IMG/VR virus record: IMGVR_UViG_3300010430_000022
Coordinates: 1-64,000 of that record
Strand: one strand, 5' to 3'
Origin: a virus
Length of the DNA stretch: 64,000 bases
Shown piece after piece: positions 24,456 to 63,043 of the stretch. The notes under the pieces were generated by a model. The model saw only the letters and a program-made list of their open reading frames with translations, did not search any database and was not told the DNA's origin. How positions within the stretch are numbered: the stretch's first letter is position 1; each line of letters begins with the position of its first letter. Position numbers and translations under genes: made by a program.

Positions 24456-24905
24456 ATGACCTTGCGACGTAGATCCTTGCTTATCTTCGAGATGGATGAC
24501 CGTCTTCGAAGACAGCAACGTAACGCTGCCGCCAATCCAGGTGACGTAGACGCACAACGTGCTTTTGCGCAGAGTCGCAGGCGAGGTGCTACCACAGAGG
24601 TAAACAAGAAGCGTCCCATGCTTGGTCGAGGTCATACGGCTCGAACAGAACTACCTGACGGGGTAACGCTCTACTCCTCTTCGGTGCGACACGATGGTTG
24701 GTGGGGTGTTCATCACGGGCATCAGGAGCCTGACTCAAAGGATGTCTCAGATCACGGTCACGATCACGCACACAAGCTTGAATACGGCAAACAGGGCAAT
24801 ATCACTAAGGACGAGCCACCTCATCCCGATAAGGTGCGCGAGTTCCACGAGAAATACGTCGACCGCTTTCTAAACGGTCAAGCAAGTAGCAATCATGGAT
24901 CTTGA
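24456..24905 (+). CDS. Putative internal head protein with capsid-targeting motif, His-rich
   Basis: A 149-residue protein from ATG 24456. The N-terminus MTLRRRSLLIFE fits the recurrent L-x-R-x-x-L-L-x-E motif of this window, with a predicted prohead-protease cut after Glu. The next section is basic (DRLRRQQRN, QSRRRG). Near residue 90 a His/Asp cluster (VSDHGHDHAHKLEYG) could bind metal. An in-frame GTG at 24441 is an alternative start. It overlaps the next gene by 11 bases. Packaging in the capsid is inferred from the motif and from closeness to the head genes. Confidence 0.6.
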   Translation: MTLRRRSLLIFEMDDRLRRQQRNAAANPGDVDAQRAFAQSRRRGATTEVNKKRPMLGRGHTARTELPDGVTLYSSSVRHDGWWGVHHGHQEPDSKDVSDHGHDHAHKLEYGKQGNITKDEPPHPDKVREFHEKYVDRFLNGQASSNHGS

Positions 24906-25137
24906 GCGTACCCCGTTGCTGCTCGAACGGCGCGGCCGTACCCGCCACGCGAGGCACAAGGCCGCCGATATCCTTCGGTCTCGCAGCGGTAGAACCAAGA
25001 AGCGCAAGAACCGTGGAAGGCTTTCGCGCCTGATTGCTCGTGAAATGGACACTCCACAGCGCTCTCCTCTCACTGGGCTAGCAATGGGTAACTTCACCGG
25101 AGGTATGCCTGGCGGCGGGATCATCAAGCACGCATGA
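24895..25137 (+). CDS. Small basic putative internal head protein
   Basis: An 80-residue protein beginning MDLERTPLLLE, the clearest copy of the recurrent N-terminal motif; cleavage after Glu11 would fit the (L/I)-x-E rule of T4-type prohead proteases. The remainder is strongly basic (RRGRTRHARHKAADILRSRS, TKKRKNRGRLSRL) and ends in a Gly-rich tail. This is what a DNA-condensing internal head protein looks like. It is translationally coupled on both sides (overlap upstream, ATGA downstream). Confidence 0.65.
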   Translation: MDLERTPLLLERRGRTRHARHKAADILRSRSGRTKKRKNRGRLSRLIAREMDTPQRSPLTGLAMGNFTGGMPGGGIIKHA

Positions 25138-25490
25138 TCCGCCAGACGCTTCTAGTTGAGACCTTGGTCACCAGGACGATCACCCGTAGGGGCCCGGTGT
25201 TCATGTATCGCCGCCCCCAGGGCCCACCTGTCACTAGCGATGATTCGATTGATCGGTGGCTGCACAAGACCACTCAAGCCTTTGACTTCTCGCCGATGTT
25301 CAATGGGGATCAATATCAGTCGAGGATCGTCGCAGAGCGCTATCTAGCACACCTCAAGAAGGAATCTGCCCGAGAAGGCATGGACTGGGGAGAGGTTGCT
25401 AGTCGCCTCAAGCAGATCAGTCCTCACCTCCGCCGTGGCTTCCAGACCTTCTTCTCGTTCTTTGATGCGTCTGTTCGCACAAGCGGCTAA
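25134..25490 (+). CDS. Putative internal head protein
   Basis: A 118-residue protein starting MIRQTLLVE, a short form of the targeting motif (L-V-E then Thr). The rest is basic to neutral, with a helical section (AERYLAHLKKESAREGMDW) and an aromatic C-terminus (FQTFFSFFDAS). No family recognised. Its start overlaps the upstream stop (ATGA) and its stop overlaps the start of the Hint gene (TAATG), so the three small genes and the Hint gene form one translational run. Confidence 0.58.
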   Translation: MIRQTLLVETLVTRTITRRGPVFMYRRPQGPPVTSDDSIDRWLHKTTQAFDFSPMFNGDQYQSRIVAERYLAHLKKESAREGMDWGEVASRLKQISPHLRRGFQTFFSFFDASVRTSG

Positions 25491-26179
25491 TGCTCGACGC
25501 TGAGACCCTTATCACCACGCTCGCCGGGCCACGTCCCATCAGCGATTTCATTGATAAGGGTCCAGTCCGAATCTTCACCTGGAATGGTGAACGGGTCACT
25601 GTCGGAGAGGTCGAGGTCAAGGACTCGACGCGTCTGGTCATTCCGTTCCGCGTAGAACTCGATGACGGCTCAAAGCTTGTGCTCTGCACCGAGACACTGG
25701 TCTTGCTCAGGAACGGGGCCCCTAGGTTCCCAGAGCAGCTTGTCTCTGAGACTTCGTTGCTCCCCCTCTACACGAAGAGCGATTCGTCGGGCTATCCGGT
25801 CTACCAAGAACCTGGCGAGTGGCACCGAGCAGCCTTGACGCCCAGCGACCGCAATCGTTGGCGACGCGTCAGCCGCATGGTGGCTGAATGGAAACTGGGA
25901 CGAAGATGCGCGCCAGGAGACGTAGTTTCCTACGTTTCAAAGGACCGAATGGACTGTTCTCCTGAGAACTTGAAGTTCCATCGGAAAGAACGAAAGAAGA
26001 CCGAGAAAAAGGTCGGGTTTGCCGAACCGCTCTTCGAAGCGCAGCGGTTTCTCGACAGGTACAATCACAAGGTAGTCCGCACCTACCTTGACACTAGCCG
26101 TAGTTTGCTGTCGATTAGAGGTTTAGGAACGGCTAACCTATCGGTTGGCGGAGTCTTCGTCTCCGTAGACCCGGAGTAA
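25490..26179 (+). CDS. Stand-alone Hint (intein-derived) protein
   Basis: A 229-residue protein. The start MLDAETLITTLAGPRPISDF matches intein block A, but the initiator Met sits exactly where the splicing Cys1 should be. The end LGTANLSVGGVFVSVDPE matches block F/G but lacks the terminal His-Asn and the +1 nucleophile. Between them (~residues 100-165) lies a region resembling a degenerate HNH endonuclease insert (KDRMDCSPENLKFHRKERKK) without the catalytic His pair. Protein splicing therefore looks impossible. It stops three bases before the intein-containing portal gene. Confidence 0.72.
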   Translation: MLDAETLITTLAGPRPISDFIDKGPVRIFTWNGERVTVGEVEVKDSTRLVIPFRVELDDGSKLVLCTETLVLLRNGAPRFPEQLVSETSLLPLYTKSDSSGYPVYQEPGEWHRAALTPSDRNRWRRVSRMVAEWKLGRRCAPGDVVSYVSKDRMDCSPENLKFHRKERKKTEKKVGFAEPLFEAQRFLDRYNHKVVRTYLDTSRSLLSIRGLGTANLSVGGVFVSVDPE

Positions 26180-26182
26180 CCT

Positions 26183-28591
26183 GTGGCAATTCGAGATCGA
26201 GCACTTACCGCTCTCCGTCGCGTGTTTGGTGACGACAGAGATGAGCGGGAGCGCGCAGAGAGTCCTAGCGCCGACGCTCTACGTCACGCACCCTCCTCCA
26301 CCTACGCCATCTGGGGGCGTGAGGATATTGGCGGGCTTCTCTCGGTCTCCCAGAACCTCATGGATCGCTACGCGGACTACGAGGCAATGAATGACTACCC
26401 AGACATTCGTTGCTTCACCGGAGACATGAAGGTCTACGTTGTTGCCGACAACAACGTCATCGTGCCGACTCCGATCAAGACGATCTGCGAGAGCACCGAA
26501 ACCTTCGAGATCCTTGCCTACGACAAGAAGAAGAAGTGTTTGGTCCCGGTTACGGCTGAGCACCCTCGGATTTCAGGACGTAACGCCCCCATTCTTCGTC
26601 TCGAACTCAGCAACGGCGAAGTTCTCCGCGTTACCCCCAACCACAAAATCTTCTGCGTCGAGCCTCGTCCGGGCTACGTCGAGGCGAAAGACCTGAAGAA
26701 GGGCGCCTTCATTGTTGGTGCTCGTGCCGGCTTCGAGACTGAAGCCAAGAGCATGCTCACCGTCAAGACGGCTGGTGGTGTGTGGCTGAGCGAAGACCCA
26801 GTTCCGGACAGCTTCGCCCCCGAGGTCTATGACATCACGACCTCGACTCACAACCTCTTGGTCAACGGCGTCATTTGCCACAACTCGGCGTTCCACTACT
26901 TCGCCAACGACGCAACGCAGCCCAACATGGACAACGGGCGTGTCTGCTGGCTCCAGAGCCCAGACCAAGCGGTCGTGGACATGGGCGACACGCTCATCAA
27001 GCGCCGCCTCCGGCTTGAAGACGATCTGTTCTCCATCGCCTACTCGCTCTGCCAGTACGGGAACGACTTCGAAGAGGTGCTGGTCACTGAGAACGGCGTG
27101 GTCGGCCTCAACAACTTGGCAGCGCCCACCATGCGCCGAGTGGAGAAGCTCAACGGTAGCCTGATCGGCTACGTACAGGACGTCACAGGTCGCTTTACAG
27201 CCAACCAGGACGAATTGCGTCGGATGCTGGCGGGTGCGCTGACCATTCCCAAGCACGTCGCACTCTTCGAGGACTGGCAGGTCTGCCACTTCCGTTCGCG
27301 CTCAACGACTAGACGCTCACCCTATGGGGTGTCTGTTGGCGAAGGTGCGCGATGGATTTGGAAGCGTCTCGTCATGCTCGAAGACGCGGTCATGATCTAC
27401 AAGCTGACCCGTTCGCCGGCTCGTTACGCCTTCTACGTGGACGTCACGGACGTTCCACCGAACCGTGTCGAGTCTTTCTTGAAGCGCGCCAAGCGCGACC
27501 TCAAGAAGAAGAAGATGGTCAACCCCAACAACAACTTCCTCGACATGCGCTACAACCCGCTCAGCAACGATGAGGACTTCTTCATTGCTGTTCGCGACGG
27601 TCGTGCGCTCTCCCGTGTTGAAGTGCTCTCGGGCCCCGACTACCAGAACACAGACGACGTCGAGTATTTCCAGCGCAAGCTGCACGGCGCCCTCATGGTG
27701 CCTCGCGCCTACATGGGCCAAGACGCGCCAATTCAGGGTCGTGCAATTCTGTCCAACGAGGACGTTCGAGCCGCACGCGTCAGCCTTCAGATCCAAAAGG
27801 AACTGAAGAACGGCATCGAGAGCATCGTTCGCACCGATCTCGCAGCCCGAGGTCACGGTGCCCCGTGGAACGTAGATCTCGACGTCATGATGACCGTGCC
27901 CTCCAACATCTACGAGTTGGCAGCCATGGAGGTGAAGAACGCTCGCGCTGACTTTGCTGCCAGGATCCAGCCCTACGTCTCTATGCGCTGGCTGCTAGAG
28001 AATGTCTTCAAGCTCTCTGACGACGAGATCCGTGAGGTCGAGAAGCAGCGTCGACGCGAGGCCAATCTCGCCGATGCCATGGGTATGGACCCGTCCTTCT
28101 CCGCCTTTACGGGCGGGCGTCCTCCCGATCAGGATCCTGAGATGGACCCAGGAGCGGCAGGAGGAGACCCAGGAGCGGCAGCGCCTCCAGGTGGCGGTCT
28201 ACAAGAGGTTCCTGGTGCTGGTGGAGCCGGACTACAGGAAGTTCCTGGTGGTGGGCTGCAAGAAGTCCCTGGAGCAGGGCTGCAAGAGGTCCCAGGTAAC
28301 GGTCTCGAAGAAGTGCGTCCGGGTAGGAATGCCTCTCGTAATGAGTGGCGTGCTTACGACCGTCGTCGACGTCTTGAAGAGAATCGTTACCGCGAGTCGC
28401 GTCAAAACCACCAGAAGTTGGTGGATATGATCGGAAATCTCCAACAAAATGATGCGGGTTTTGCGCGCCGTTTGGACGAGACAACTTCCTTCTTGAAAGA
28501 GTTCAAGCAAGCGACCATGAAACGCGTCAATGGTCGATTGGTGGGCACTCCTTCAGCAGGAGCGGGTAGACCACAGGCTCGCGGTCACTAG
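26183..28591 (+). CDS. Portal vertex protein (T4 gp20-like) with mini-intein
   Basis: An 802-residue precursor with GTG start. Exteins: residues 1-76 and 235-802. The C-extein begins SAFHYFANDATQPN, the conserved portal stretch after Y-P-(D/E)-I, and continues with portal-like sequence (KRRLRLEDDLFSIAYSLCQY, PYGVSVGEGARWIWKRLVML, RAYMGQDAPIQGRAILSNED). Residues 77-234 are an intein (listed separately). After splicing the portal is 644 residues, somewhat longer than T4 gp20 because of a Gly/Pro tail with GLQEVPG repeats and a final basic helix. It forms the DNA entry ring and docks the packaging motor. It is followed by the usual head-gene order. Confidence 0.88.
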   Translation: MAIRDRALTALRRVFGDDRDERERAESPSADALRHAPSSTYAIWGREDIGGLLSVSQNLMDRYADYEAMNDYPDIRCFTGDMKVYVVADNNVIVPTPIKTICESTETFEILAYDKKKKCLVPVTAEHPRISGRNAPILRLELSNGEVLRVTPNHKIFCVEPRPGYVEAKDLKKGAFIVGARAGFETEAKSMLTVKTAGGVWLSEDPVPDSFAPEVYDITTSTHNLLVNGVICHNSAFHYFANDATQPNMDNGRVCWLQSPDQAVVDMGDTLIKRRLRLEDDLFSIAYSLCQYGNDFEEVLVTENGVVGLNNLAAPTMRRVEKLNGSLIGYVQDVTGRFTANQDELRRMLAGALTIPKHVALFEDWQVCHFRSRSTTRRSPYGVSVGEGARWIWKRLVMLEDAVMIYKLTRSPARYAFYVDVTDVPPNRVESFLKRAKRDLKKKKMVNPNNNFLDMRYNPLSNDEDFFIAVRDGRALSRVEVLSGPDYQNTDDVEYFQRKLHGALMVPRAYMGQDAPIQGRAILSNEDVRAARVSLQIQKELKNGIESIVRTDLAARGHGAPWNVDLDVMMTVPSNIYELAAMEVKNARADFAARIQPYVSMRWLLENVFKLSDDEIREVEKQRRREANLADAMGMDPSFSAFTGGRPPDQDPEMDPGAAGGDPGAAAPPGGGLQEVPGAGGAGLQEVPGGGLQEVPGAGLQEVPGNGLEEVRPGRNASRNEWRAYDRRRRLEENRYRESRQNHQKLVDMIGNLQQNDAGFARRLDETTSFLKEFKQATMKRVNGRLVGTPSAGAGRPQARGH
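26411..26884 (+). other. Mini-intein in the portal gene
   Basis: A 158-residue in-frame insert running from Cys77 to Asn234 of the portal precursor, followed by Ser+1. Block A: CFTGDMKVYV; block B: VTPNHKIF with the TxxH motif; block F: VYDITTSTHNLLVNG; block G: GVICHN|S. All standard splicing residues (Cys1, block-B His, penultimate His, terminal Asn, Ser+1) are present, so it should be active. No endonuclease domain fits in this length. It interrupts the conserved portal sequence between Y-P-D-I-R and S-A-F-H-Y-F. Confidence 0.88.
28182..28320 (+). repeat. GLQEVPG repeats in the portal C-terminus
   Basis: Four copies of a 7-residue unit G-L-Q-E-V-P-G with Gly/Ala spacers and a diverged fifth (GLEEVRPG). 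They lie in a Gly/Pro-rich segment just before the last helix of the portal. At the DNA level the unit varies in codon use, so it is not a very recent expansion. It is probably a flexible linker. Confidence 0.7.
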
Positions 28592-28681: not shown

Positions 28682-28709
28682 TAGGTATATCGAAGGTCAT
28701 AGGAAACCC

Positions 28710-29546
28710 ATGCCCGTTGTTCTCAAAAACGCAGTCGTCGACCAACTCCGCGCATCACGTTACGCGGACGATGCCATGTCGCGTCTCCGGGAGAACTCCT
28801 GGGAAGTGCAGCGCGGTGCGCTGGTGCGCATGGTCGAGTCGACTGAGTGGCGCTTCGGTCCTGCTGAGTTGATCGCCACCTTCGACCACCACGTCCTGGC
28901 CAAGTCGCCTAGCGGAGACATTGTTCAGGTCGAGTGGTCTACTGGTGATGAGGGTCAGATCTATCTGGGCCGCGCCGTTGTTCACGAGTCCACCACACCT
29001 GTGTCGGACCTGGGCTACGAAGTCATGGAGACCGCTCGCTCCGCTGTCGACAAGATCCTCGACGAGGACTACACAGCAGCCGGCCCCATGATCGCGTGCA
29101 TCACTGAGGCGCTTGACGTCGGCGGTGATCTTCAGCGCCAGATCGGCAACGAGGTGACTGTTCAGTCGCTCAGCCGCCGCGCCTGGTGGCACGACGTTGT
29201 TGGCCTCAACGAGGACACCGTCGAGAAGCTCCCAGAGGTGAATGTCGAAGACATTCAAAAGTCGGCTACCGACCTCCTTGCCTTCTTGAAGGAGCAAGCG
29301 TCCACGCTCTCAATTACTGCTCGTCAACTCGACGGCGGTAACGCAGGGCCAGAGATCGAATCTCTGGCTTCGGACGTCGTTGAGGATGTTCACCGAGCAA
29401 TCTCGGCGCTGATGAACCTCGACCGTCGCCGTACGGCCGAGGTGACCAAGATTTACGAAGCGGTCATGTCTGCGACGCCGCAGCTTCTCAGTGGGATCGC
29501 TTTCCTCTCACAGTTGTCCGAAGCCTCGGACGAGAACGTCAGCTAG
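28710..29546 (+). CDS. Head-region protein of unknown function
   Basis: A 278-residue protein from ATG 28710 (RBS AGGAAA; an upstream in-frame TTG at 28653 lies in the putative -35 and is rejected). It is acidic, with a beta-rich first third (VLAKSPSGDIVQVEWSTGDE) and helical remainder (LLAFLKEQASTLSITARQ). Position between portal and scaffold/protease matches the small prohead-core genes of T4-like phages (gp67/gp68 region), but no similarity is claimed. Probably a prohead or virion component. Confidence 0.65.
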   Translation: MPVVLKNAVVDQLRASRYADDAMSRLRENSWEVQRGALVRMVESTEWRFGPAELIATFDHHVLAKSPSGDIVQVEWSTGDEGQIYLGRAVVHESTTPVSDLGYEVMETARSAVDKILDEDYTAAGPMIACITEALDVGGDLQRQIGNEVTVQSLSRRAWWHDVVGLNEDTVEKLPEVNVEDIQKSATDLLAFLKEQASTLSITARQLDGGNAGPEIESLASDVVEDVHRAISALMNLDRRRTAEVTKIYEAVMSATPQLLSGIAFLSQLSEASDENVS

Positions 29547-29575
29547 CCAGGTCGGAAGGCCCGAGGAGATTTCAC

Positions 29576-30727
29576 ATGATGCTTCCAGCTACAGGTCCGA
29601 CGACCTCCCTTATGGAAGACCTCCAGTCCCTCAACATGGTTGAGTCGAGTGGACCTTCTACAAAGGTCAAGCAGGTCAAGCAGTCTGACCCCGAAGGCGG
29701 AGACTACGCCGGCAAGCCTGGCAACAAGACCCCTGATCCGGGCGGTGACGTCGACCTGGAAACTGGTGACGCGGCTGCCGGTCACTACACCTACGTCCCC
29801 GGACGTGGTGACGAGAACGTCGGTCCCGACGGCAAGTACGGCAAGAGCCGTGGCGGCGCCAAGAACGAGGACTACGAGGACTCTTCGGGCAAGATGGTTC
29901 CGAGCTTCATGATTCCTCCCGCCGTCTCCGCTGACGAGATCGCCGAGGAGCAGGAGGCTCTGGCCGAGCAGGCTCGCGCTGGCCAACTGAACCGTGCTTG
30001 GGACGTCATCAACGCCTACTTCAGCGAGGACGACGACGGTCTCAACGAGGATGGCCTGCGCGGCGTCATCAACGCCATGGGCCACGCGATCAACGTCGCC
30101 GTCGAAGACATCGCCATGCTTCAGGGTGAGAACGTTCGCCTGACCGAGGCGGTCAACGACCTGAACCGGATCCTCAAGGAGTCCGAGCTTCACGAGGCAG
30201 CAATGCCCCCTGAGATGATGGCCAAGTACCAGGCCATGCAGGCCAAGGGCGACGACGACGACGAGGAAGAGGACGACGACGACGACGAAGACGACGAGAA
30301 GGGTTCGAAGCAGGCAGCTTCCTACCGCTCCCGTTCCAACCTTCACGAGGACGCTAGCCTCAACTCGATCCTCGACGAGGTTGCCTCCATTGGCGGCAGC
30401 CCTCGCCAGCAGGCGATCAGCGCCCAGAGCAAGCTGATCGAAGCCTTCGAGAGCGTGCTGGAGTCGGCCTCTGAAGTCGTCGACCGTGTTGTGGACGTGA
30501 TCCGTGACGACGAAGGTCTCGCTGAGGACGAGGAGATCGAGCTTCCCGAAGACGACGCGCGCCTCAAGGTCGCGAACTACTTCTACGGGATCGCCGAGGA
30601 CGCCCAGGGCTACCTCAACCGCCTGGCAGATGGCGACGTCGCCTTCCGCGTGGCCGAGGAAGACCTGAGCCGCTTGCACGCTGACATCCAGAACGGCATC
30701 GACGCGATGCACAAGATCCCCGCGTAA
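29576..30727 (+). CDS. Acidic scaffold-like prohead core protein
   Basis: A 383-residue strongly acidic protein with RBS GAGGAGAT. It begins MMLPATGPTTSLMEDLQSLNMVES, holding two (L/M)-x-E sites. A Gly/Asp-rich disordered section (~25-100) is followed by helical segments and a run of Asp/Glu at residues ~222-240. The C-terminal third is helical. Composition and the place directly before the protease suggest an assembly scaffold that the protease degrades; T4 gp22 and gp67 are analogues by position, not by shown homology. Confidence 0.65.
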   Translation: MMLPATGPTTSLMEDLQSLNMVESSGPSTKVKQVKQSDPEGGDYAGKPGNKTPDPGGDVDLETGDAAAGHYTYVPGRGDENVGPDGKYGKSRGGAKNEDYEDSSGKMVPSFMIPPAVSADEIAEEQEALAEQARAGQLNRAWDVINAYFSEDDDGLNEDGLRGVINAMGHAINVAVEDIAMLQGENVRLTEAVNDLNRILKESELHEAAMPPEMMAKYQAMQAKGDDDDEEEDDDDDEDDEKGSKQAASYRSRSNLHEDASLNSILDEVASIGGSPRQQAISAQSKLIEAFESVLESASEVVDRVVDVIRDDEGLAEDEEIELPEDDARLKVANYFYGIAEDAQGYLNRLADGDVAFRVAEEDLSRLHADIQNGIDAMHKIPA

Positions 30728-30782
30728 GGAGACGTAGTCGAGGAACGGTTTCGGTAACCCACGACTAAGTCTGGAGACTTTC

Positions 30783-32654
30783 ATGACGACCAACACAATG
30801 AGCCCACAGGTAGAGCAGCGTTTCCGTGCAAACGCCAGCGCTACCCGTCGGCCTCTGGTCGACAACATGTTGGTGGAGTCTGAGGGCTTCACCAAGATGA
30901 CCGTCCTGGCCGAAGACTCTCAGAGCAAGGGCGCTCTGATTGTCGAAGGTCTGGTCGGTATCTGTGGAAAGGCGACGAAGAATCGTCGTCTCTACACAGA
31001 GTCGATCATGAAGCGAGAGATCAAGCGTCTTCAGGAACGGATCGATTCTCGGTCCCTCCTGGCTGCTGTGGATCACCCCACAGACGGCAAGTCGCGTATC
31101 CGTGAGGCTGGCGCCATCTGCGTTGGTCTCCGGTGCGAGGCCGACGGTCGGATCATCGGCAAGTACGAAATCGTCGAAGACTCGACCGGTGGTAAGGATC
31201 TCGCCGCATTCCTGCGTGCAGGTGCCTCCATTGGTATGTCCTCCCGTGGCCTGGGTTCGACCTCGGTCAACATGGAAGGCGTCCACGTTGTTGGCGAGGA
31301 CTTCAAGCTCCACGGCTTCGACTTCGTCGCTGATCCCGCTTGCGAGACGGCCTATCCCACACTGGTGTCTGAGGACGTCGACGCGGCACAGGTCGACGAG
31401 AACCAGCTTCGCGCAACCTTCGGCAACCTTGTCGAGCAGATCGAAGATCGCGCTCGCCAGGCTGGTGCCGAGATCGCTGAAGAAGAGGTTCGGGCTCAGG
31501 TCGAAGAGGAGTTCAAGTCGGCACTCGATGAGGCCGGTGGCAAGCTCCGTGAAGACATCAAGCTCCAGGTGGAGTCCGAGATCCGCGAACAGCTTCGCGA
31601 AGACTTCTCGGTCAAGCTCCTAAAGGCCCTCCAAGAGCAGCGGACTCAGATCGAGTCTGTTGTGCGCTCAGAGCTTCTCTCCGACCCCAAGGTCGGTGCC
31701 GCCAAGCGCTTCATGGAAGACCTCGCTCAGAAGCTCGTGCCCTTCGCACCGGCGCCCGACCAGCAAGTCGTCATGGACGATTACGAGGCCAAGCTGGCTT
31801 CGCTGCGTGAGGACGTCGAGAAGAACGAGGCTGCGGTCGGCGCCAAGGACAGCGTCATCAACGAGATGGCCGAGCGCGTTGAGGTCGCCGAACAGGCCGC
31901 TCGCTCGCTGGGCTACAAGCTCTACATCGAGCGCTGCCTTGAGGGTCGCGAGAACGCTGCTCACCTCCGTGAGATGATCGGCACCCCTGACGGCAGCGAG
32001 AGCGCCGACGATCTCCGTGATCGCGTCAGCGCAGTTCTGAACCAGGTCTCCGAGGCAGAGGATCAGGCCCAAGCGCAAGCTCAGTCCAAGATCAAGCTCA
32101 AGGAGCACAAGGCCGATCTGGCCCGCAGGAAGGCAGAGGTCGCAACCGAAGACTTCGACCGTTTCCGCTCTGAGATGGAAGGACGCTTCGAACGTCTCTC
32201 CACTCGCATGGGATCGCAAATCCGCGAGAAGGATCGTGCGCTCTCCGAGGCTCTCGGCCATATCGAGAACCTAGAGAGCACAGTGGGCCAGTCCCGTCGT
32301 CAGCTTCAAGAAGCTGACCTTCGCGCATACGCGGCCCGACGCGTTATCGGCCACCCCCGCGCAAACGACATTCTCTCCCTCGTTGAGAGTGGACGAGTGA
32401 CCTCGAAGGACCAAGTCCAGCAACTTGCCGAGCAGTGGGACAACACTGCAAGCGAGCCTGGCGGGGTCAGTGAGCGCATTCGTCGTTCACTTGGGCGAGG
32501 CCGTGAGGCCCCCACTGAGGACGACCAACAGCGGTTTACTCAACTAATGGAAGACCAGCAGACCATTCCCGGTCTTGAGGGCTTCGACACCACCATGGGA
32601 GAACTCCGCGCGCTGTCGGGGATCGATCATGACTCTTTCAATGGCAGATTCTAA
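30783..32654 (+). CDS. Prohead protease (T4 gp21-like) fused to scaffold-like coiled coil
   Basis: A 623-residue protein. Residues ~35-200 match the T4 gp21-type serine protease: His98 in AAVDHPTDGKSR, Ser153/Ser154 in GMSSRGLGS, and GFDFVADPAC carrying the likely Asp. Residues ~205-560 are long charged coiled-coil helices typical of a head scaffold. The enzyme would mature the head by cutting scaffold, capsid and internal proteins after Glu. The protein contains NMLVES near residue 29, a possible self-cleavage site. In T4, protease and scaffold are separate genes; here they are one polypeptide. It lies 12 bases upstream of the capsid gene. Confidence 0.85.
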   Translation: MTTNTMSPQVEQRFRANASATRRPLVDNMLVESEGFTKMTVLAEDSQSKGALIVEGLVGICGKATKNRRLYTESIMKREIKRLQERIDSRSLLAAVDHPTDGKSRIREAGAICVGLRCEADGRIIGKYEIVEDSTGGKDLAAFLRAGASIGMSSRGLGSTSVNMEGVHVVGEDFKLHGFDFVADPACETAYPTLVSEDVDAAQVDENQLRATFGNLVEQIEDRARQAGAEIAEEEVRAQVEEEFKSALDEAGGKLREDIKLQVESEIREQLREDFSVKLLKALQEQRTQIESVVRSELLSDPKVGAAKRFMEDLAQKLVPFAPAPDQQVVMDDYEAKLASLREDVEKNEAAVGAKDSVINEMAERVEVAEQAARSLGYKLYIERCLEGRENAAHLREMIGTPDGSESADDLRDRVSAVLNQVSEAEDQAQAQAQSKIKLKEHKADLARRKAEVATEDFDRFRSEMEGRFERLSTRMGSQIREKDRALSEALGHIENLESTVGQSRRQLQEADLRAYAARRVIGHPRANDILSLVESGRVTSKDQVQQLAEQWDNTASEPGGVSERIRRSLGRGREAPTEDDQQRFTQLMEDQQTIPGLEGFDTTMGELRALSGIDHDSFNGRF

Positions 32655-32666: not shown

Positions 32667-34112
32667 ATGTTCCAGGCACGTTCAATGATTGCCGAGAGTG
32701 CAGAAGGGTGCGCCCTCGCCGATCACGGTATGGTTCGACAGTACGTCAACAAGTGGGCTCCCCTGCTTGAAGGCATCGAGTCCGAACTCGACAAGTTCAC
32801 CCCTCGTGGGCAGGCCCAGTATGTGAAGTCCGTCGCGGCCTTCATGCTGGAGAACCAGGCTCGACACCTCAAGCGGCTCTCTGAGGAGACTCGGGCGCTG
32901 TCGGTCGGCCCGTTCTTGAAGTTCGTCTTTCCCGTCATCCGACGCGCCGCCGTGCGGTTGGTTGCGACGCAGATTGCGTCCGTCCAGCCCATGACCGGTC
33001 CCATCGGTGGCGTGGCCTTCTACAGGCCACGTTATGCGACGGACAAGGGTCAGGTCGTCGCCGGCCAGGAGATGAACAAGACGTTCAACAAGTGGTACTC
33101 GTCGAACTTCATCGACGGCGAAGGCATTGGCACCGGCAACGGCACCAACACCGTCTTCTCCTCGAACCTGAAGTTCCCTCGGGTTCTCTCCGGCACCCTC
33201 CGGGTCCTGGTTCGCACGGCTGGCACGACCCAGACGGGCACCCTGGTCGGAACTGACAACGGCGCTGGCGGTCTGACCGCTGTTGCTGGCGGGCCTCTCG
33301 CTGGCGGCACGATCAACTACCAGGCTGGTCAGCTTCAGGTCAACTTCGCCGCCGCTCCGGCGACGACCGACGAAGTGCTCATTGAGTACAAGTACGACAA
33401 CGAACTGAACCCCCGGATCCCCGAAGTCCAGTTGGACATCGCGATCCAGGAGATCCGTGCGGAGTCGCGCAAGCTCAAGAGCCTGGCGTCCGTCGAGGCT
33501 GCGGACGACCTCCGCGCCCTCTGGGGACGTGACATCGACGCCGACCTCGTTGCTCACATGAGTGACGAAATGACGGCGGAGATCGACCGCGAGATCGCCG
33601 GCACGGCGCTGAACGCAGTCGAGGGTCTGGCCATGCTGGACTGGGACCGTGCGACTCCTTCGGGCGTCTCCGATCCTGAGCACCTCCAGTCGCTCGTGAT
33701 CCGCATGTCCGAGGCGAGCCACATCGTTCACCGTCGCACCCAGCGTGCGCCGACGAACTGGTGCATCACCTCGTCCGAGGTCGCTGCCCTCCTGGAGACC
33801 ATGCCCGGATTCGCTTCCGTGGACGATGGTCACGTCTACCAGGGAGGCATCATGAAGGGAGGTGTCCTCAACAGGAAGTGGGTTATCTACGTTGATCCCC
33901 TCTTCCCGCAGGACGAGATCCTCATGGGTTACCAGGGTCCTTCGATCCTGGACACCGGCATGATCTACTCGCCCTACGTGCCGATGGAGATCACGCCTAA
34001 CTTCGTTGACCCCAACGACTTCAGCCTCCGTCGCGCGATCCGCACGCGTCACAAGATCACCCTGATCCGGCCGGAGTTCTTCTCGAAGGTCAAGATCTCG
34101 AACCTCAACTAG
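32667..34112 (+). CDS. Major capsid protein (T4 gp23-like)
   Basis: A 481-residue protein with RBS AAGGAGGG. HK97-fold/gp23 landmarks are ASVQPMTGPIGGVAFYR near residue 104 and VQLDIAIQEIRAESRKLKSL with DDLRALWGRDIDADL near 255-290, as in gp23 proteins. An Ala/Gly/Thr-rich insertion (~residues 150-243) separates these blocks and may be a surface domain. The N-terminus MFQARSMIAES holds an I-A-E site at residue 10, suggesting a much shorter propeptide than the 65 residues of T4 gp23. A strong terminator follows. Confidence 0.92.
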   Translation: MFQARSMIAESAEGCALADHGMVRQYVNKWAPLLEGIESELDKFTPRGQAQYVKSVAAFMLENQARHLKRLSEETRALSVGPFLKFVFPVIRRAAVRLVATQIASVQPMTGPIGGVAFYRPRYATDKGQVVAGQEMNKTFNKWYSSNFIDGEGIGTGNGTNTVFSSNLKFPRVLSGTLRVLVRTAGTTQTGTLVGTDNGAGGLTAVAGGPLAGGTINYQAGQLQVNFAAAPATTDEVLIEYKYDNELNPRIPEVQLDIAIQEIRAESRKLKSLASVEAADDLRALWGRDIDADLVAHMSDEMTAEIDREIAGTALNAVEGLAMLDWDRATPSGVSDPEHLQSLVIRMSEASHIVHRRTQRAPTNWCITSSEVAALLETMPGFASVDDGHVYQGGIMKGGVLNRKWVIYVDPLFPQDEILMGYQGPSILDTGMIYSPYVPMEITPNFVDPNDFSLRRAIRTRHKITLIRPEFFSKVKISNLN

Positions 34113-34211: not shown

Positions 34212-35045
34212 GTGAGCACTCTCTTCGAACGAATCGGCCTCGCAGAAGGACGAGGACGAAACTTCCGGATTGCTGATCGCAGAGGTGACGCGGCGCGAGC
34301 AGACTGGTATTCCGATGACTCGGAGAGTCGTCGGAAGCGTAGTCAACGTCGTGCAATCGCCAAATTCCTCAAGCCAGCAGAGGATTGGGCTGACAAGGAA
34401 TCAGACAGTCTTGGGCACAACAAGAGGCAGCGAGAAGAGCACGCCCGCTATCACACCACGCTAGCTCTCAACCCCAGTCTGAAGGATGACGCAAGCTTCC
34501 ATCAGGACCACAAGGACCGTCTCTATAAGCATCAAGAGACGGCGCAGCGGAATCGCCCTGTCCGATCTAAGGATCAGAAGAAGCGTGGTGGTGTCGGAGC
34601 GCAATGGGACACCGTCGTCGGCGGTAAGCGCGCCAAGCGCTTTGAGGCTACGGAGTCGATGTTCGACCGTGTTTTCACCGAGGGCGTAAAGAAGCTCCAA
34701 CGTGCTGGTCAGGGCCTTGTAGCCTCTGGCACTGTGAGGAATGTCGCAAACCCTCGCTCTGGTCCGGACTACCCTTACACGCGCCCAGATCCAGATGAGG
34801 CCCGAACGGCGAAGGCGCTCTATAAGGCGCACTCTTCTGACGAGCGCGAGACAGCCAGCATCCGAGGCACTTCACGCAAAGAGGCGATGAAGAAAGCGAC
34901 CGACAAGACTAAGGCTGAGTTGGAGGACGATCCTCAGGACAGGTGGCGAGACGCCAACTGGAAGCCTAAGCGTCGCCCTCGTGTCAGCAGGCAAGAGCGC
35001 AAGGCTTACCACGACACGCGTGGTGGTGACCGAGAGACCCACTAA
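34212..35045 (+). CDS. Basic putative internal head protein
   Basis: A 277-residue, Lys/Arg-rich protein starting (GTG) MSTLFERIGLAEG, a variant of the targeting motif with an L-A-E site. A second site-like block ESMFDRVFTEGVKK near residue 150 resembles LFDQVFTESDKK in the protein at 36935. The rest is charged and probably disordered with short helices. No enzyme motif. Position after the capsid gene and its composition suggest a packaged, proteolytically matured protein. Confidence 0.62.
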   Translation: MSTLFERIGLAEGRGRNFRIADRRGDAARADWYSDDSESRRKRSQRRAIAKFLKPAEDWADKESDSLGHNKRQREEHARYHTTLALNPSLKDDASFHQDHKDRLYKHQETAQRNRPVRSKDQKKRGGVGAQWDTVVGGKRAKRFEATESMFDRVFTEGVKKLQRAGQGLVASGTVRNVANPRSGPDYPYTRPDPDEARTAKALYKAHSSDERETASIRGTSRKEAMKKATDKTKAELEDDPQDRWRDANWKPKRRPRVSRQERKAYHDTRGGDRETH

Positions 35046-36934: not shown

Positions 36935-37606
36935 ATGAGCCATATCCCTAGCCTGCACGACCGGATCTTTGAGGGATTCTCCGACGACGTCAAGCACGCA
37001 CTGGCCGTCGGAATGCAGACACCCGAACGATTCGGTGGTCCACCCGAGAAGCCCAAGGAGCGTAAGAAGCCCAAGCCGACTCTGAAGAAGCCGACTCTGA
37101 AGAAGCGGCTCAAGAGGTTTGCTACGGACGCCGGCCGAGTCATGTTCCCTCGCAGCGAGGACGTGACCCTCTTCGACCAAGTTTTCACGGAGTCCGACAA
37201 GAAAAAGCTAGGTTTCGTAGGAAGCGTCAAGAAGATCGCCAAGGACGCCCACGAGTATGCGGATGTTTCAGATCCCACACACCCTTGGAATAAGATCCTC
37301 GTCACAGCGAAGAAGTGGTCTGACCAGGGCGGCGCGCTCGCCGGGAAAGATCAGGCGAAACCTCAAGCCAAACTTGAGAAAAAGGCTGGGTGGGGGTCTG
37401 AAGCCCTGAAACGTAAGAGTTCTTCGAAGGACAAGAAAAGCTCTAAATCAAAACACCCCATGAAGGTGCTCAGGAAGAGCATGCGGGATGCTCAACGCGA
37501 CCGCGACCGCGTCAGCCGTGGGGCTCAGGCGCCTCAGGGTGTTGGTCGCTCGAACCTAGGGGCCCCCGCAAAGACCACCTCGAAGCAACCTTCTGCCAAG
37601 AGGTAG
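36935..37606 (+). CDS. Basic putative internal head protein
   Basis: A 223-residue, very Lys-rich protein. It starts MSHIPSLHDRIFEGF, giving an I-F-E site at residue 13, and has VTLFDQVFTESDKKK near residue 80, like FDRVFTEGVKK in the 34212 protein. A Pro/Lys block (EKPKERKKPKPTLKKPTLKK) lies between. Composition fits a DNA-binding or condensing protein. No known family. Confidence 0.6.
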   Translation: MSHIPSLHDRIFEGFSDDVKHALAVGMQTPERFGGPPEKPKERKKPKPTLKKPTLKKRLKRFATDAGRVMFPRSEDVTLFDQVFTESDKKKLGFVGSVKKIAKDAHEYADVSDPTHPWNKILVTAKKWSDQGGALAGKDQAKPQAKLEKKAGWGSEALKRKSSSKDKKSSKSKHPMKVLRKSMRDAQRDRDRVSRGAQAPQGVGRSNLGAPAKTTSKQPSAKR

Positions 37607-46481: not shown

Positions 46482-46766
46482 GTGACGCTCGAACGCACCA
46501 ACCTCATCATGGAGACCGGCCCCTACGGGGGCGGGGGCGGTGGTCGTTCGGCTGGTGGATTCGCTACGCCTGTTTCGGGCCGGCGGTTCAATACCTGGCC
46601 GTTCGTCCCCAACGCTAAGCTTCTGATGCAGAAGGATCAGGAGGCTCAGCGCCGCCGCGAACGTCTTCGCGAATTGGCGTTAGGATGGTTCATGCACGGT
46701 GGCATGGGGACCGCCGGCTCGACGAACGGTGCGTCTAGTGGCTCAGCCCCAGGATCAATCTTCTAG
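46482..46766 (+). CDS. Small Gly-rich protein with capsid-targeting motif
   Basis: A 94-residue protein with a GTG start and N-terminus MTLERTNLIMETG, a clear variant of the LERTPLLLE motif (I-M-E site). It continues with a Gly run (YGGGGGGRSAGG), a short basic helix (KDQEAQRRRERLRELAL) and a Gly/Ser tail. Cleavage after Glu11 would leave a small Gly-rich internal protein. It lies eight bases after the RFMAEG-repeat gene. Confidence 0.6.
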   Translation: MTLERTNLIMETGPYGGGGGGRSAGGFATPVSGRRFNTWPFVPNAKLLMQKDQEAQRRRERLRELALGWFMHGGMGTAGSTNGASSGSAPGSIF

Positions 46767-56141: not shown

Positions 56142-56154
56142 GTAGGAGAACAGC

Positions 56155-56448: not shown

Positions 56449-56474
56449 TACAACCACCCCGGATTCCGAGTGCG

Positions 56475-59202: not shown

Positions 59203-59885
59203 GCGATCCGAGGTTCATCGTTATCTCCGGCCTGATCGGTGTTGGTAAGAGCACGCTCTGTAAGAAGCTGGCAGAGCTTCTCGACTACGAACCGATCTTC
59301 GAGCCCGTCGAGGACAACCCCTACCTGGAGAAGTTCTACAAGGACCCCAACAAGTGGGCCTACCCGATGCAGGAGTTCCTCAAGCATCGGCGCTTCGCGG
59401 CCTATCAGTACGCCGCCTGGGGGATCAAGCACGGAGCCTTCAAGGGTGTGGTCCTCGACAGGTCTATCCACGAAGACACCGTCTTTGCAGAGATCAACGC
59501 CAAGATCGGTACCATCGACGCTCTCAACTGGAAGACCTATCTCCAGGGCTTCAACGACTTCCAGACGTTCCTGCCTGAGCCAGACGTTTACATCTATCTC
59601 GACGCCAGCCCAGAGACCTGTCACGCTCGGATCCTGGAGCGCGCTCGGCCGGCAGAGCAGCAGACCGGCTTCGAGGGTGATCCCGAAGACGCGCCGAAGG
59701 GAATCCCTCTCGACTACCTCCGGACCTTGCACCAGGGCTACCAGGACTGGCTGAAAGAGATCGCGCCTCGGATCCCCACAGTCAAGCTCGACTGGACGCG
59801 CTTCAAGACCACTGAGGACGCTTGGAAGTGGGTCAACGGTCAGATCGACGAGCGCAGTCGCTTCACACGGAGCTTGGTGGTCTAG
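59199..59885 (+). CDS. Deoxynucleoside kinase
   Basis: A 228-residue P-loop kinase of the dNK/dCK/dGK family. Walker A GLIGVGKST at 11-19, EPVEDNPYLEKFYKDP near 35, DRSIHEDTVFAE near 88, and a lid region with RARPAEQQTG near 148. These are standard for deoxynucleoside kinases. It phosphorylates deoxynucleosides (salvage), feeding dNTP synthesis with the dNMP kinase and RNR. It converges on the minus-strand 2H gene with a 4-base stop overlap and no terminator. Confidence 0.88.
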   Translation: MSDPRFIVISGLIGVGKSTLCKKLAELLDYEPIFEPVEDNPYLEKFYKDPNKWAYPMQEFLKHRRFAAYQYAAWGIKHGAFKGVVLDRSIHEDTVFAEINAKIGTIDALNWKTYLQGFNDFQTFLPEPDVYIYLDASPETCHARILERARPAEQQTGFEGDPEDAPKGIPLDYLRTLHQGYQDWLKEIAPRIPTVKLDWTRFKTTEDAWKWVNGQIDERSRFTRSLVV

Positions 59886-60442
59886 TAGCCACGCTTTGGC
59901 AACGCCCTAATCGTTCCGGTTAGGGGCAGGTGTCCGTGTTTGATCTTGCCTCCGACCTTACGAGGCACCGCAACACGATCTCCACGCTGCTGGGCCAGCA
60001 GATCGTTGCTCTGCACCGGCTTAGCTCCCGGCGCGTGCGAGATCGTGATGTGTGGGTGCTCCTTCTTCGTGAGGTGTTCGACACCTGAGACGCGAACAGC
60101 GTGGATCCCCATCTTCTCATCGTCAGCATGATGCGTCGCGTGGAGGTTCACTGTCTTCTTATGTTCCGGTGTGTTGTGGAACCGGTCGAGATCCTCTTGG
60201 GATGGGTCGTAGTTCAGCGTGACGTGATCGGCGGTTCGCGACTTGTACTTCGACGGGAAGTGCTGCGCCAACGCCTTCTTAGAGCCGTGGCTCAGTTCAA
60301 GCGCAAGATAGTGGCTGTCTGGGGAGTAGGGCGTTCCGCTAGCCGGCGCCGACTGTCGGTCAGACTTCGTTCGACGCTCACGGGGCGTAGGCGTTCCGGT
60401 CCCAAAGCCTTCGATCAAGAGAGGTGTTCGGCGAAGATTCAT
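59882..60442 (-). CDS. 2H phosphoesterase with capsid-targeting motif
   Basis: A 186-residue protein. Two H-x-T motifs define a 2H phosphoesterase: DHVTLNYDP (His73, Thr75) and EHPHITISHAP (His131, Thr133). The N-terminus MNLRRTPLLIE|G fits the recurrent targeting motif with cleavage after Glu11, and ~30 basic disordered residues separate it from the catalytic domain. Substrates could be 2',3'-cyclic phosphate RNA ends (RNA repair) or cyclic nucleotides, as for the T4 anti-CBASS protein Acb1. It is translationally coupled to the upstream HAD gene (4-base overlap). Confidence 0.75.
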   Translation of the reverse strand: MNLRRTPLLIEGFGTGTPTPRERRTKSDRQSAPASGTPYSPDSHYLALELSHGSKKALAQHFPSKYKSRTADHVTLNYDPSQEDLDRFHNTPEHKKTVNLHATHHADDEKMGIHAVRVSGVEHLTKKEHPHITISHAPGAKPVQSNDLLAQQRGDRVAVPRKVGGKIKHGHLPLTGTIRALPKRGY

Positions 60443-61107
60443 GAGGTTTTTGGCATCGATCCGGCAGATCCCCAGTGCTCGTCGTCGACGTGATGCAGCG
60501 TGTGCTTCACTCCGAGGTCACTGAGAACCTTCCTGAAGTGTTCAATGTGCTCGGGACGGTCGTCCCACATGTGAACGTGTTTGAGATGTGGGTGCTCTGA
60601 ATGGAAACGCTTGAGCATGTGCCCCTTCCACTCAGCAGTCTTCATAGGCTTCTTCTTACCGTCCTGCGGAGGCTTCAGGAAGAGGTCGTGACCGTGCTTG
60701 TGTCCCCTCACCCCGAGCTTGTGCAGGGTATGAGACACAGCGTCTTGCATATCCGGCTTGGCGACGCGTCCGGTCATGACCACGACTCTGCTATGCGGAG
60801 ATGCTTTAGCGGCGTGATAGTTCTTGAGCGTGTGCTCGATTGGGTGCGTCTCGAACGGGTGACGAAGCGTCTTGTGGTCCCCCCACCAGTCACCAGGCTT
60901 GCTGCCTCGTGGATTCGTCCTGCTACGTGAGTGGTAGCGATAGAGATCCTTGTTCTGCGATGTTGGCTCAGGCGTCCTGGCCAGGGTGCCGTCCATGTCG
61001 AAGATGTGGAGGTGTTTCGCATTGCGAGACTCAATGAGGAGCGCAACCTCCTCTGCTCGGATGGCCTCAAGAATCGGGCTGATTGCTCGAATGGTGCGAC
61101 TTCTCAT
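60439..61107 (-). CDS. HAD-family phosphatase with targeting-motif-like N-terminus
   Basis: A 222-residue HAD-type hydrolase: HIFDMDGTLART (Asp37, Asp39), VVVMTGR at 108-114 and WDDRPEH at 181-187. The layout, with LKP before the last motif, resembles the HAD domains linked to RNA-repair proteins (HAD_SAK group). The first ~30 residues are extra and contain SPILEA and LLIES, (L/I)-x-E sites like the targeting motif. The likely reaction is phosphate removal, perhaps from RNA or nucleotide ends. It starts directly after the stop of the basic gene at 61108. Confidence 0.78.
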   Translation of the reverse strand: MRSRTIRAISPILEAIRAEEVALLIESRNAKHLHIFDMDGTLARTPEPTSQNKDLYRYHSRSRTNPRGSKPGDWWGDHKTLRHPFETHPIEHTLKNYHAAKASPHSRVVVMTGRVAKPDMQDAVSHTLHKLGVRGHKHGHDLFLKPPQDGKKKPMKTAEWKGHMLKRFHSEHPHLKHVHMWDDRPEHIEHFRKVLSDLGVKHTLHHVDDEHWGSAGSMPKTS

Positions 61108-61395
61108 CTATCCCTTATGCCCCGATCCTGGCAGCTTGGCACGTTTCACTACGCGGCCCTTGATCTTCGACTTCAACTGTCGCCTCTTCTCGGGTGGAAC
61201 GAAGATCAACTTTCCCTTACGGAAGATGTATTGGGGATGCTTCTTCGACCACCTTTTCCGCTCCTGTTGCCAGAGCCATTTAGCTGCTCGCTTAGCCCCA
61301 AAGGTGGCAGAGGGCCGTTTCTTGGACATCCGCTCCTTCGACGATTGGCGACGGACCTGTAGTGCCTCGCACAGAAGTGGTGTCCGGGTAAGCAT
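61108..61395 (-). CDS. Very basic putative internal head protein
   Basis: A 95-residue protein with N-terminus MLTRTPLLCEA, a clear targeting motif (L-C-E site). After it the protein is extremely basic (RRQSSKERMSKKRPSATFG, KWLWQQERKRWSKKHPQY, KRRQLKSKIKGRVVKRA). Such a protein would bind and condense DNA inside the capsid. It is the first gene of the minus-strand trio, read away from the divergent 61458 gene. Confidence 0.68.
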   Translation of the reverse strand: MLTRTPLLCEALQVRRQSSKERMSKKRPSATFGAKRAAKWLWQQERKRWSKKHPQYIFRKGKLIFVPPEKRRQLKSKIKGRVVKRAKLPGSGHKG

Positions 61396-61444
61396 GGACC
61401 CAGTCTACCTAACTACTTAGGTGCCAGCGACCATGTCTTTCGGC

Positions 61445-61450
61445 TAGAAT
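61445..61450 (+). promoter_or_regulatory. -10-like TAGAAT in the divergent spacer
   Basis: TAGAAT lies eight bases before the first ATG of the 61458 gene, in the 62-base spacer between divergent genes. TGCCAG, 17 bases upstream, is a weak -35. If this is a -10, transcription would begin near the first ATG, favouring the in-frame ATG at 61479. On the other strand TAGACT (61405-61410 region) could serve the minus-strand trio. Confidence 0.35.
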
Positions 61451-61457
61451 CGGGAGG

Positions 61458-62726
61458 ATGACGCAAGGTAAACCGAAGATGAGTCGTGCGGCGCTACGAT
61501 GCGGCTCTGTAGCTGTGAGTGTGCTCAAGCCGGGCACTAAACGCTATGAGCGGTGGTTGGCCAGGCGAAACCGCCGCCGGGCTGCGACCATGCGGAAGAA
61601 GCAAGAAGAGGACACCATGTTCGAGGAGCGAGAAGCTGACAAGACCGGGGCGCTCACCTGCGGCGTCTTCCTCCCGCTCCCCTATGACCTCGCCAAGGAC
61701 TTCCCGGATAAGAGCGAGCACGACGACTCGGTGCCGCACTACACACTGCTCTTCGTGGGCCCTTGCACCCCTGCGCAGTTCAAGACGCTTGTCATGGTCA
61801 TTCGAGGTGTTGCGGTCAAGTTGAAGCCATTCCCTATGGACCTTGCCTCCTACGGCGAGTTCATGAACAAGGAGGGAATGAAGATCTCCAACATGGGGCC
61901 TAGCTTGATCGCTCGATTCCGAATGGCGGCTCTTCACGGCATACTCCGACGCGCCGTCGAGTCGCTGGCTAAAGGGGTCACGGTGAAGCACACCTACGGA
62001 CCTGGAGAGTCGAAGTCGATCCCATACGAAGCCCAGTTCAAGCCTCACGCGACCCTGGCTTACCTTCCGCGCATGATGCCCTACCGAGGCCCGAAGCCAA
62101 CTGGTAGTTGGAACGTCACTGAGCTTGAGGTCTGGGGCCACGAGAAGGTCCGGATCCCGCTCGGCAAGACCCTAGCGCGCCAGCCTATTGGCCTGACGCG
62201 TGATCCCATCAAGTTCGATTACCCCATGGCCGTCCCTGAGGTCTCGACTGGCAAAGGCAAGGGCAAGCCCAAGCTGGAGGACAGGATTCCTGGTGGTCTG
62301 GCCGATAATTCCGGCCCCGACGATTTCGACCCCAAGCAACTCGCGAAGGGCGTCAAGGTCGAGTTGGAGCACACCAGCAGCCGCGCCATTGCTACAGAGA
62401 TCGCCATGGATCATCTGAAGGAGGACCCTCGCTACTACTCCAAGTTGGAGAAGATCCATACCGAAAGCACGTCGTCGGGCAACATCGCTGCGCCAAACGT
62501 GAAGAAGTGGGGAGAGGCGTTCTTGCGCGAACCGCTGCACCTGCGAGCACGCAGCGGAGATCCATTCCTCCAGGGAGAGGATGTGGTCGGCGGCTCCATG
62601 GGTGCCATGGGTAAGGGGGTCGGTGGCTCCAGTGGGGATATCGGTCTCGACGGATCTCTGCCCTACCTAGAGGTGCAGAAGCAGATCGACAAGAAGCTGC
62701 GCCGGAAGAAGCTCAAGGGCCTGTAG
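61458..62726 (+). CDS. 2H phosphoesterase with DUF5661-like C-terminal domain
   Basis: A 422-residue protein; starts at ATG 61458, 61479 or 61617 are possible and the first is only just downstream of GGGAGG. After a basic ~60-residue N-terminus the catalytic domain has PHYTLLFVG (His94, Thr96) and FKPHATLAYLP (His197, Thr199), the two H-x-T motifs of 2H phosphoesterases. Residues ~290-335 (FDPKQLAKGVKVELEHTSSR then IAMDHLKEDPRYYSKLEKIH) resemble the phage domain DUF5661. It would act on cyclic phosphates in RNA or nucleotides. It overlaps the next gene by one base. Confidence 0.75.
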   Translation: MTQGKPKMSRAALRCGSVAVSVLKPGTKRYERWLARRNRRRAATMRKKQEEDTMFEEREADKTGALTCGVFLPLPYDLAKDFPDKSEHDDSVPHYTLLFVGPCTPAQFKTLVMVIRGVAVKLKPFPMDLASYGEFMNKEGMKISNMGPSLIARFRMAALHGILRRAVESLAKGVTVKHTYGPGESKSIPYEAQFKPHATLAYLPRMMPYRGPKPTGSWNVTELEVWGHEKVRIPLGKTLARQPIGLTRDPIKFDYPMAVPEVSTGKGKGKPKLEDRIPGGLADNSGPDDFDPKQLAKGVKVELEHTSSRAIATEIAMDHLKEDPRYYSKLEKIHTESTSSGNIAAPNVKKWGEAFLREPLHLRARSGDPFLQGEDVVGGSMGAMGKGVGGSSGDIGLDGSLPYLEVQKQIDKKLRRKKLKGL

Positions 62727-63043
62727 TGCTAGAGCGTACCCCCCTGCTCCTTGAACGAGACAAGAAGCTCGCCTTCCACGGCGGTTCACTCAACCGACAC
62801 ACCCCGCGGGAGAGAGCCTGGCTCCCAAAGCGCTATCGTGCGAAGCACAAGGATGGGCATTTCCGTCGGAACCCTAAGGGGAAGCTCAAGAAGCGCGCCG
62901 GTGATCCTTTGCGGGATGAGCCGCTTCGCCACGACATCGAGAAGCGCGCCAGAAACCGCCACAGGCACTCTCACGTTCACTCCGACGTCTCCCTAGACCT
63001 TATGCGGACTGAACTTCTGCTGGATCACGACAAGAAGACGTGA
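62726..63043 (+). CDS. Small basic putative internal head protein
   Basis: A 105-residue protein with GTG start overlapping the upstream stop. N-terminus MLERTPLLLER is one of the best matches to the recurrent motif (cut expected after Glu10). The rest is very basic with many His (RERAWLPKRYRAKHKDGHFR, RARNRHRHSHVHSD). The C-terminus LMRTELLLDHDKKT echoes the motif. Probably packaged and DNA-binding (inference). Confidence 0.68.
   Translation: MLERTPLLLERDKKLAFHGGSLNRHTPRERAWLPKRYRAKHKDGHFRRNPKGKLKKRAGDPLRDEPLRHDIEKRARNRHRHSHVHSDVSLDLMRTELLLDHDKKT

Follow-up and report, generated by a model that had tools for sequence, protein, structure and literature searches.

In bacteriophage T4, short N-terminal peptides bring proteins into the core and gp21 then cuts them; the first 10 residues of IPIII are enough for targeting, and the gp21 protease cuts at L/I-x-E sites (PMC9026906). 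T4 Alt, a head-carried enzyme with two propeptides, is cut at both ends (PMC5694885). In the T4 record the starts of the core and head proteins gp21 (MNEPQLLIE), gp22 (MLKEQLIAE) and gp24 (MAKINELLRE) resemble tags of this kind. Here we analyze a 64,000-nt window (the whole stretch of DNA studied) of the 74,465-b uncultured virus record IMGVR_UViG_3300010430_000022, itself a fragment, in which peptides recurring at the N-termini of unrelated proteins are, to judge from the sequences, very probably lineage-specific capsid-targeting sequences of a T4-like phage. The analysis establishes the shared peptide, its position, the selection acting on its amino acids, the accompanying protease and head module, its modular gain or loss, and a compositional signature of the proteins that bear it. 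The principle is already known from T4; the novelty lies in a tag specific to the lineage, in how widely it is used and in the fact that two lineages tag tRNA-repair enzymes in parallel.

A first-pass annotation of the window had listed ten such peptides, all of which are present where it had placed them. To these we add three proteins: two from the same record outside the window and, probably, a HAD protein, whose tag is weaker than the others. The tagged set is as follows:

24456..24905, plus strand: His-rich protein of 149 aa; tag MTLRRRSLLIFE at 24456-24491
24895..25137, plus strand: small basic protein of 80 aa, net charge +14; class-1 tag MDLERTPLLLE at 24895-24927
25134..25490, plus strand: 118-aa protein; tag MIRQTLLVE at 25134-25160
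34212..35045, plus strand: basic protein of 277 aa; class-2 tag MSTLFERIGLAE at 34212-34247, internal SMFDRVFTE at 34656-34682
35057..36745, plus strand: tRNA nucleotidyltransferase (CCA-adding family); tag MYQAHTLLILE at 35057-35089, C-terminal class-2-like YSLYARVFSA at 36713-36742
36935..37606, plus strand: basic protein of 223 aa; class-2 tag MSHIPSLHDRIFE at 36935-36973, internal TLFDQVFTE at 37166-37192
46482..46766, plus strand: 94-aa protein; tag MTLERTNLIME at 46482-46514
59882..60442, minus strand: 2H phosphodiesterase-like (tRNA_lig_CPD-like) protein; tag MNLRRTPLLIE at 60410-60442
60439..61107, minus strand: HAD_SAK RNA-repair-type phosphatase; 33-aa N-terminal extension with ILE-14 and LLIE-26 (61030-61107), a probable tag
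61108..61395, minus strand: strongly basic protein of 95 aa, net charge +26; tag MLTRTPLLCE at 61366-61395, with the sole Cys inside it
62726..63043, plus strand: basic His-rich protein of 105 aa; tag MLERTPLLLE at 62726-62755, second copy DLMRTELLLD near the C-terminus
68348 (outside the window, same record): additional tagged member, MALYTAQTLLVLE
73232-73963 (outside the window, same record), minus strand: additional tagged member, a kinase; tag RTLPLVE

As to details of the first listing, the starts at 34212, 35057, 46482 and 62726 are GTG codons, 24456 is an internal ATG of open reading frame (ORF) 24441, and SLHDRIFE occupies residues 6-13 of the 36935 protein. Further, the recurrence is real but the supposed single peptide is a blend of two motifs. 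Class 1, [RHQ][TS]xL[LIV]xE, aligned on its Glu, is found at 24456, 24895, 35057, 46482, 60442 (minus), 61395 (minus), 62726 and 68348, and with small shifts at 25134 and 73963 (minus); it has R, H or Q at Glu-6, L at Glu-3 and the hydrophobic pair kept. Class 2, [ST]L[FYH]xR[IV]FxE, is found at 34212 and 36935, and also in the relatives L016, L018, L002, L004 and L109. At Glu-6 most class-2 copies carry an aromatic residue, and their positions -3 (V/I) and -2 are hydrophobic; MSTLFERIGLAE and SLHDRIFE are off register, and the copies VFTE and VFVE have F at the L/I place of the gp21 site. The 34212 and 36935 proteins each hold a second, internal class-2 site, at which the orthologue of the latter in the relative G003 (capsid 92% identical) starts; such sites would fit the processing of one ORF into several pieces.

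Motifs of the window phage were counted in 68 hand-listed proteins (21,484 aa), with gene calls made within the analysis and some start codons picked on account of the tag. The strict motif R[TS]xL[LIVM]xE occurs six times N-terminally and never internally, with a post hoc p of ~8e-9, and its looser form nine times N-terminally versus once internally; motif p-values are descriptive, because both patterns were drawn from the same data. Translation of the window in all six frames yields seven occurrences of the class-1 core pattern, every one 1-9 codons from a start codon. For an unfitted control we used the gp21 site of the literature, [LI]xE, within residues 2-14, and random internal stretches as the null. 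It is present in 19/68 proteins versus 5.9 +/- 2.2 expected (maximum 14 in 2,000 draws), an enrichment ratio of 3.3; the corresponding ratios are 1.4 for contigs of relatives, 1.8 for a pair of T4 segments and 1.4-1.6 for two huge phages. With a profile built from the window genome, the top four matches in the relatives' 306 proteins (96,660 aa) are all N-terminal copies (14.1-18.0), the next match scoring 9.8. Five orthologues of the 25134 protein keep R, L, L and E invariant while the intervening residues vary (e.g. MIRQHLLVE, MNRTPLLLE, RRSTLLLE, MRRQSLLVE). Five orthologues of the 24895 protein retain the ERT-LLLERR block (one with T for P) over a basic body that diverges, as does its length, and the 46482 orthologue L017:6429 retains its tag. 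A scan of IMG/VR for M-x-L-x-R-T-P-L-L-x-E gave 3 matches, of which only L026 is a true relative; L027 and L028 were rejected, there being no plausible gene at the site. A simple aromatic T4-type pattern was not significantly enriched in a T4-like IMG/VR set of 76 loci with few genes per contig (7 matches, p 0.3).

The shared stretch coincides exactly with gene starts, and in several cases the tagged gene overlaps the upstream stop, pointing to translational coupling; both facts would suit a signal in the DNA or RNA (a leader peptide, or an element for translation initiation or attenuation) that is translated only incidentally. However, when unrelated tagged genes are compared in pairs, they have 4-7 residues of the tag in common and encode 3-6 of these by different codons, and the flanks are at about chance identity (13-40% over the upstream 30 nt, 15-33% over the downstream 60 nt). 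Therefore, selection acts on the peptide. As a nucleic acid signal also leaves the internal and C-terminal copies and the cargo composition unexplained, this explanation is already near refutation and we regard it as extremely improbable. Two genes do have an identical RTPLLLE, with 81% nucleotide identity over the core, as might be expected if the tags were relics of ancestry, a single N-terminal module having been duplicated, shuffled and left functionless; but the codon differences among the other genes, the conservation in relatives and the same-register variants point to a maintained function, and we give the relic scenario next to no weight.

Two marks of a capsid-targeting sequence are seen in these peptides: they are short and stand at the very beginning of proteins that are not related to each other, and they end in L/I-x-E. 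As in the T4 type, the genome also has a gp21-family protease within a T4-like head module:

26183..28591, plus strand: gp20-like portal protein (phrog_213)
28710..29546, plus strand: head-module protein placed like a T4 core gene, on the basis of synteny with T4 20-67-68-21-22-23
29576..30727, plus strand: core/scaffold candidate of the head module, with SLMEDL and NMVESS sites
30783..32654, plus strand: gp21-like prohead protease (phrog_207) fused to a long C-terminal part, with its own N-terminal site LVE
32667..34112, plus strand: gp23-like major capsid protein (phrog_138), with N-terminal MIAE and PLLE sites

The portal, the two core-position genes, the protease and the capsid stand in T4 order; family matches were looked for with the 28710 and 29576 proteins and none was found. 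The gp21-like protease announced at 30783 by the first-pass annotation is real (E 4e-32), with T4-like phages as its tblastn relatives, and proves to be a fusion of 623 aa combining the protease domain with the C-terminal part. The I-A-E site that had been ascribed to the capsid protein is likewise there (MFQARSMIAE), and the capsid N-termini of the relatives examined keep a hydrophobic-x-E site (e.g. MIAE, MLTE, MMTE, LLAE). No capsid-protein relative of the window phage was found in GTDB genomes. Separately, the portal genes of this clade contain large in-frame intein-like insertions, with open frames of 1,231-2,600 aa (26183-28591, L016:1-6597, L025:11087-14779, L026:3453-9824 and L004:591-3494), and the L004/L030 protease also has an intein-like insertion.

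Cargo composition provides independent support for the head-targeting reading. Compared with the other proteins of the genome, the tagged ones are more basic and poorer in hydrophobic residues; the first-pass annotation had called most of them basic, and every one has a positive net charge. The 13 tagged proteins have 1 Cys in 2,470 residues versus 21.6 expected from the genome's other proteins, and this residue is the one preceding the Glu in MLTRTPLLCE, i.e. inside the tag, so that the predicted mature products are Cys-free. His is abundant (8-12%) in five tagged proteins and in the probable HAD member, which has 11.7% His and no Cys. The IPI-III proteins of the T4 record are Cys-free and mildly basic; as neither they nor the cargo of the giant phage LR756511 described below are His-rich, His-richness appears to be a trait of the clade and not a packaging rule. 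One further protein is a candidate cargo:

39998..43414, plus strand: Cys-free protein of 1138 aa, net charge +67; C-terminal SLLNRTPLSV at 43382-43411

An N-terminal class-1 tag is absent from it, and its relatives have C-termini somewhat like SLLNRTPLSV.

Several tagged proteins belong to RNA-repair families. The 35057 protein matches the CCA-adding enzymes (PF01743 57.8 bits, PF12627 49.1 bits), with the PolyA_pol head and RNA-binding domains present. The 60439 protein matches HAD_SAK_1 (51.6 bits, cut-off 25.6) and keeps the DMDGT and WDDR motifs. The 59882 protein has two H-x-T motifs (DHVTL, PHITI) and scores 21.2 bits with tRNA_lig_CPD (E 2e-4); as this is under the cut-off of 23, we call it merely CPD-like or 2H-like. 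Active-site motifs are intact in these enzymes (GG-VRD, RRDF, DxDGT and both H-x-T motifs). The kinase at 73232-73963 (minus) would fit a role at the 5' end no more than loosely, and RNA ligase families are absent from the window record and from G001, both of which are fragments. Elsewhere, in six further phage records, the CCA enzyme likewise starts at the domain or close to it, and the HAD homologues in two other huge phages start right at it. In a structure model of the 35057 enzyme (pLDDT 61, 3 sequences), residues 1-50 and 534-562 have low confidence, consistent with loose tails, if weakly, since one aligned sequence is without those ends. Searches of IMG/VR found no relatives of the CCA and HAD proteins; this is a weak negative, because the pattern seeds also missed the known CCA homologue of G001. 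Two neighbors of the tagged repair genes are themselves untagged: a second 2H phosphoesterase-like protein with a DUF5661 domain and 3 Cys, lying between tagged genes (61458-62726), and an adjoining Ro60/TROVE-like RNA-binding protein with 6 Cys (L014:3253-4995; record 63252-64994), inside whose gene ARAGORN predicts a tRNA-Arg (63634-63714).

In the annotated phage collection the closest capsid, at 33-37%, belongs to LR756511, an uncultured phage of 595 kb and by this protein a distant relative, for which we called 700 proteins. In these a T4-style N-terminal motif, [FW]x[ED][FWY][LIVAFYM], occurs 29 times versus 3.8 expected (p 1e-14; e.g. MKTFAEWMEE, MKTFSEWLEA), and a looser form marks a Cys-depleted set of 51 proteins versus 13 expected. 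A Pfam scan of 20 tagged LR756511 proteins gave three clear RNA-repair matches, a CCA enzyme, tRNA_lig_CPD and HAD_SAK, each the sole member of its family in the genome and carrying a slightly looser form of the tag. The same three families are tagged in both phages, under different tags. These observations bear on the possibility that packaging is real while the repair enzymes, having lost catalysis, serve in scaffolding or DNA condensation. The odd composition of the window proteins, the tagged CCA enzyme having 11% His and low hydrophobic content, would agree with such a role; however, the active-site motifs are kept and the tagged LR756511 repair proteins have near-normal composition, which makes it unlikely.

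The interpretation as capsid-targeting sequences has to be weighed against several contrary observations. First, class 1 (R-T-P/L-L-L-x-E) is without the aromatic residue at the T4 targeting position (Tyr4 of T4, Glu-6). Second, some tagged starts have no clear Shine-Dalgarno site, several of these overlapping the upstream stop. Third, the four RNA ligase homologues and the kinases of LR756511 are untagged, with 2-10 Cys, so the repair kit there is partial. Fourth, G003 has a CCA enzyme that matches residues 46-525 of the window protein with 43% identity; it has neither the N-terminal tag nor the C-terminal YSLYARVFSA and starts at its own strong ribosome-binding site. Loss of the tag with the rest conserved, which the first-pass annotation had named as refuting its proposal, is seen in this one case. 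The G003 enzyme has 3.9% His and 32% hydrophobic residues, versus 11-12% and 23% in the two tagged CCA enzymes; because composition shifts along with the tag, we read this case as probable modularity of the tag, and packaging of the CCA enzyme, if real, is then not clade-wide. Finally, in the 642-kb LR756502.1 (W03; L157-L188), 106 proteins of 95 unrelated families start with the MKHLKKYNES / MKYLKTYKIFES type (p ~1e-73 for the core pattern) and show no clear signature in Cys or charge, so that an N-terminal peptide may recur without being a head tag; the CCA enzyme of this phage starts with MIITKYAKFLES, T4-like in appearance. Such tags by themselves name no destination, and those of LR756502, being without a cargo signature, give some room to the notion that the window peptides send proteins elsewhere, e.g. 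to the tail or baseplate, a subcellular phage compartment, the membrane or a degradation pathway. Yet the tag ends in a match to the gp21 site, similar sites are present in the protease and the capsid protein, and the cargo is like the internal proteins of T4, so that we hold another destination to be improbable. All that could be computed from the sequence favors head targeting and trimming, as first proposed.

We infer core binding, cleavage, packaging and injection by analogy with T4. In the prohead, the tag would bind core or scaffold proteins and thereby gather unrelated cargo inside the shell; cleavage by the gp21-like protease, just behind the Glu in (L/I)-x-E, would then free mature basic, Cys-free proteins that may remain with the DNA and enter the host upon infection. 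One use of this could be to supply ready-made enzymes for tRNA-end repair (2H phosphodiesterase, HAD phosphatase, CCA-adding enzyme and perhaps kinase) against tRNA-cutting defences. Phosphodiesterase, phosphatase and CCA addition would together heal a broken tRNA 3' end with no ligase, which would be a reason to deliver them at infection. The parallel tagging of three repair families in two lineages suggests a virion-delivered tRNA 3'-end repair kit. More tentatively, and at somewhat less than even chances, we propose that T4-like giant phages pack this ligase-free kit through lineage-specific tags gained independently in at least two lineages, that it is injected before phage gene expression to undo tRNA-cutting defence, and that tag regulons of 10 to 100+ proteins are general in giant phages. 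To our knowledge, tRNA-repair enzymes have not previously been shown to act as a pre-delivered counter-defence, a role to which these results point. They also offer a sequence rule for reading, from the genome alone, the virion-carried proteins of uncultured giant phages, and the tagged/untagged CCA pair raises the question of the composition needed for packing with DNA and passage through the tail tube.

Two unrelated observations were made on the way. The proteins at 3318-4265, 5779-6456 and 12881-14071 have a common C-terminal peptide, LSPGxYGxxKDxDGNVxGxKF, which is like the N-terminus of a large G007 ORF (L109:12158, LEILSPGVYGFEKE). At 48703-49563 two Clp_N domains are fused to a MazG pyrophosphohydrolase domain in a single protein.

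In the literature searched, which included few subscription papers, we found no description of such a lineage-specific tag, of its wide use or of tagged tRNA-repair enzymes. Large phages do encode RNA-repair families, as the window phage does; in the portion available of the account of jumbo-phage systems these appear as encoded genes, and capsid-targeting tags are not described (PMC7824862). The ejection proteins of phiKZ and SPN3US are similar in that they reside in the head, undergo trimming after Glu by a protease related to gp21 and are ejected, but their propeptides are mostly far longer, and a short tag recurring on many proteins is not described in the available part of that source (PMC5694885). 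The T4 ADP-ribosyltransferase Alt is comparable to the window CCA enzyme, which also has motifs at both ends (PMC5694885); unlike in Alt, the C-terminal SLYARVFSA offers no clear L/I-x-E site, and the enzyme class is different. The T4 capsid-targeting sequence of IPI-III (MKTYQEFIAE) is alike in being N-terminal, of ~10 residues, with a hydrophobic pair and x-E, and most class-2 copies follow its register (aromatic at -6; hydrophobic at -3, Phe7 of T4, and -2); of these two targeting positions class 1 has L at -3 and no aromatic residue at -6. The IPI-III system as a whole is alike in carrying unrelated proteins that are basic and Cys-free, and in having a protease of the gp21 type and the same order of head genes (PMC9026906). 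Unlike T4, the window phage has 12 or more cargo proteins, some of which bear further copies of the motif, in tandem inside the protein or at the C-terminus; they are often His-rich, and tRNA-repair enzymes are among them.

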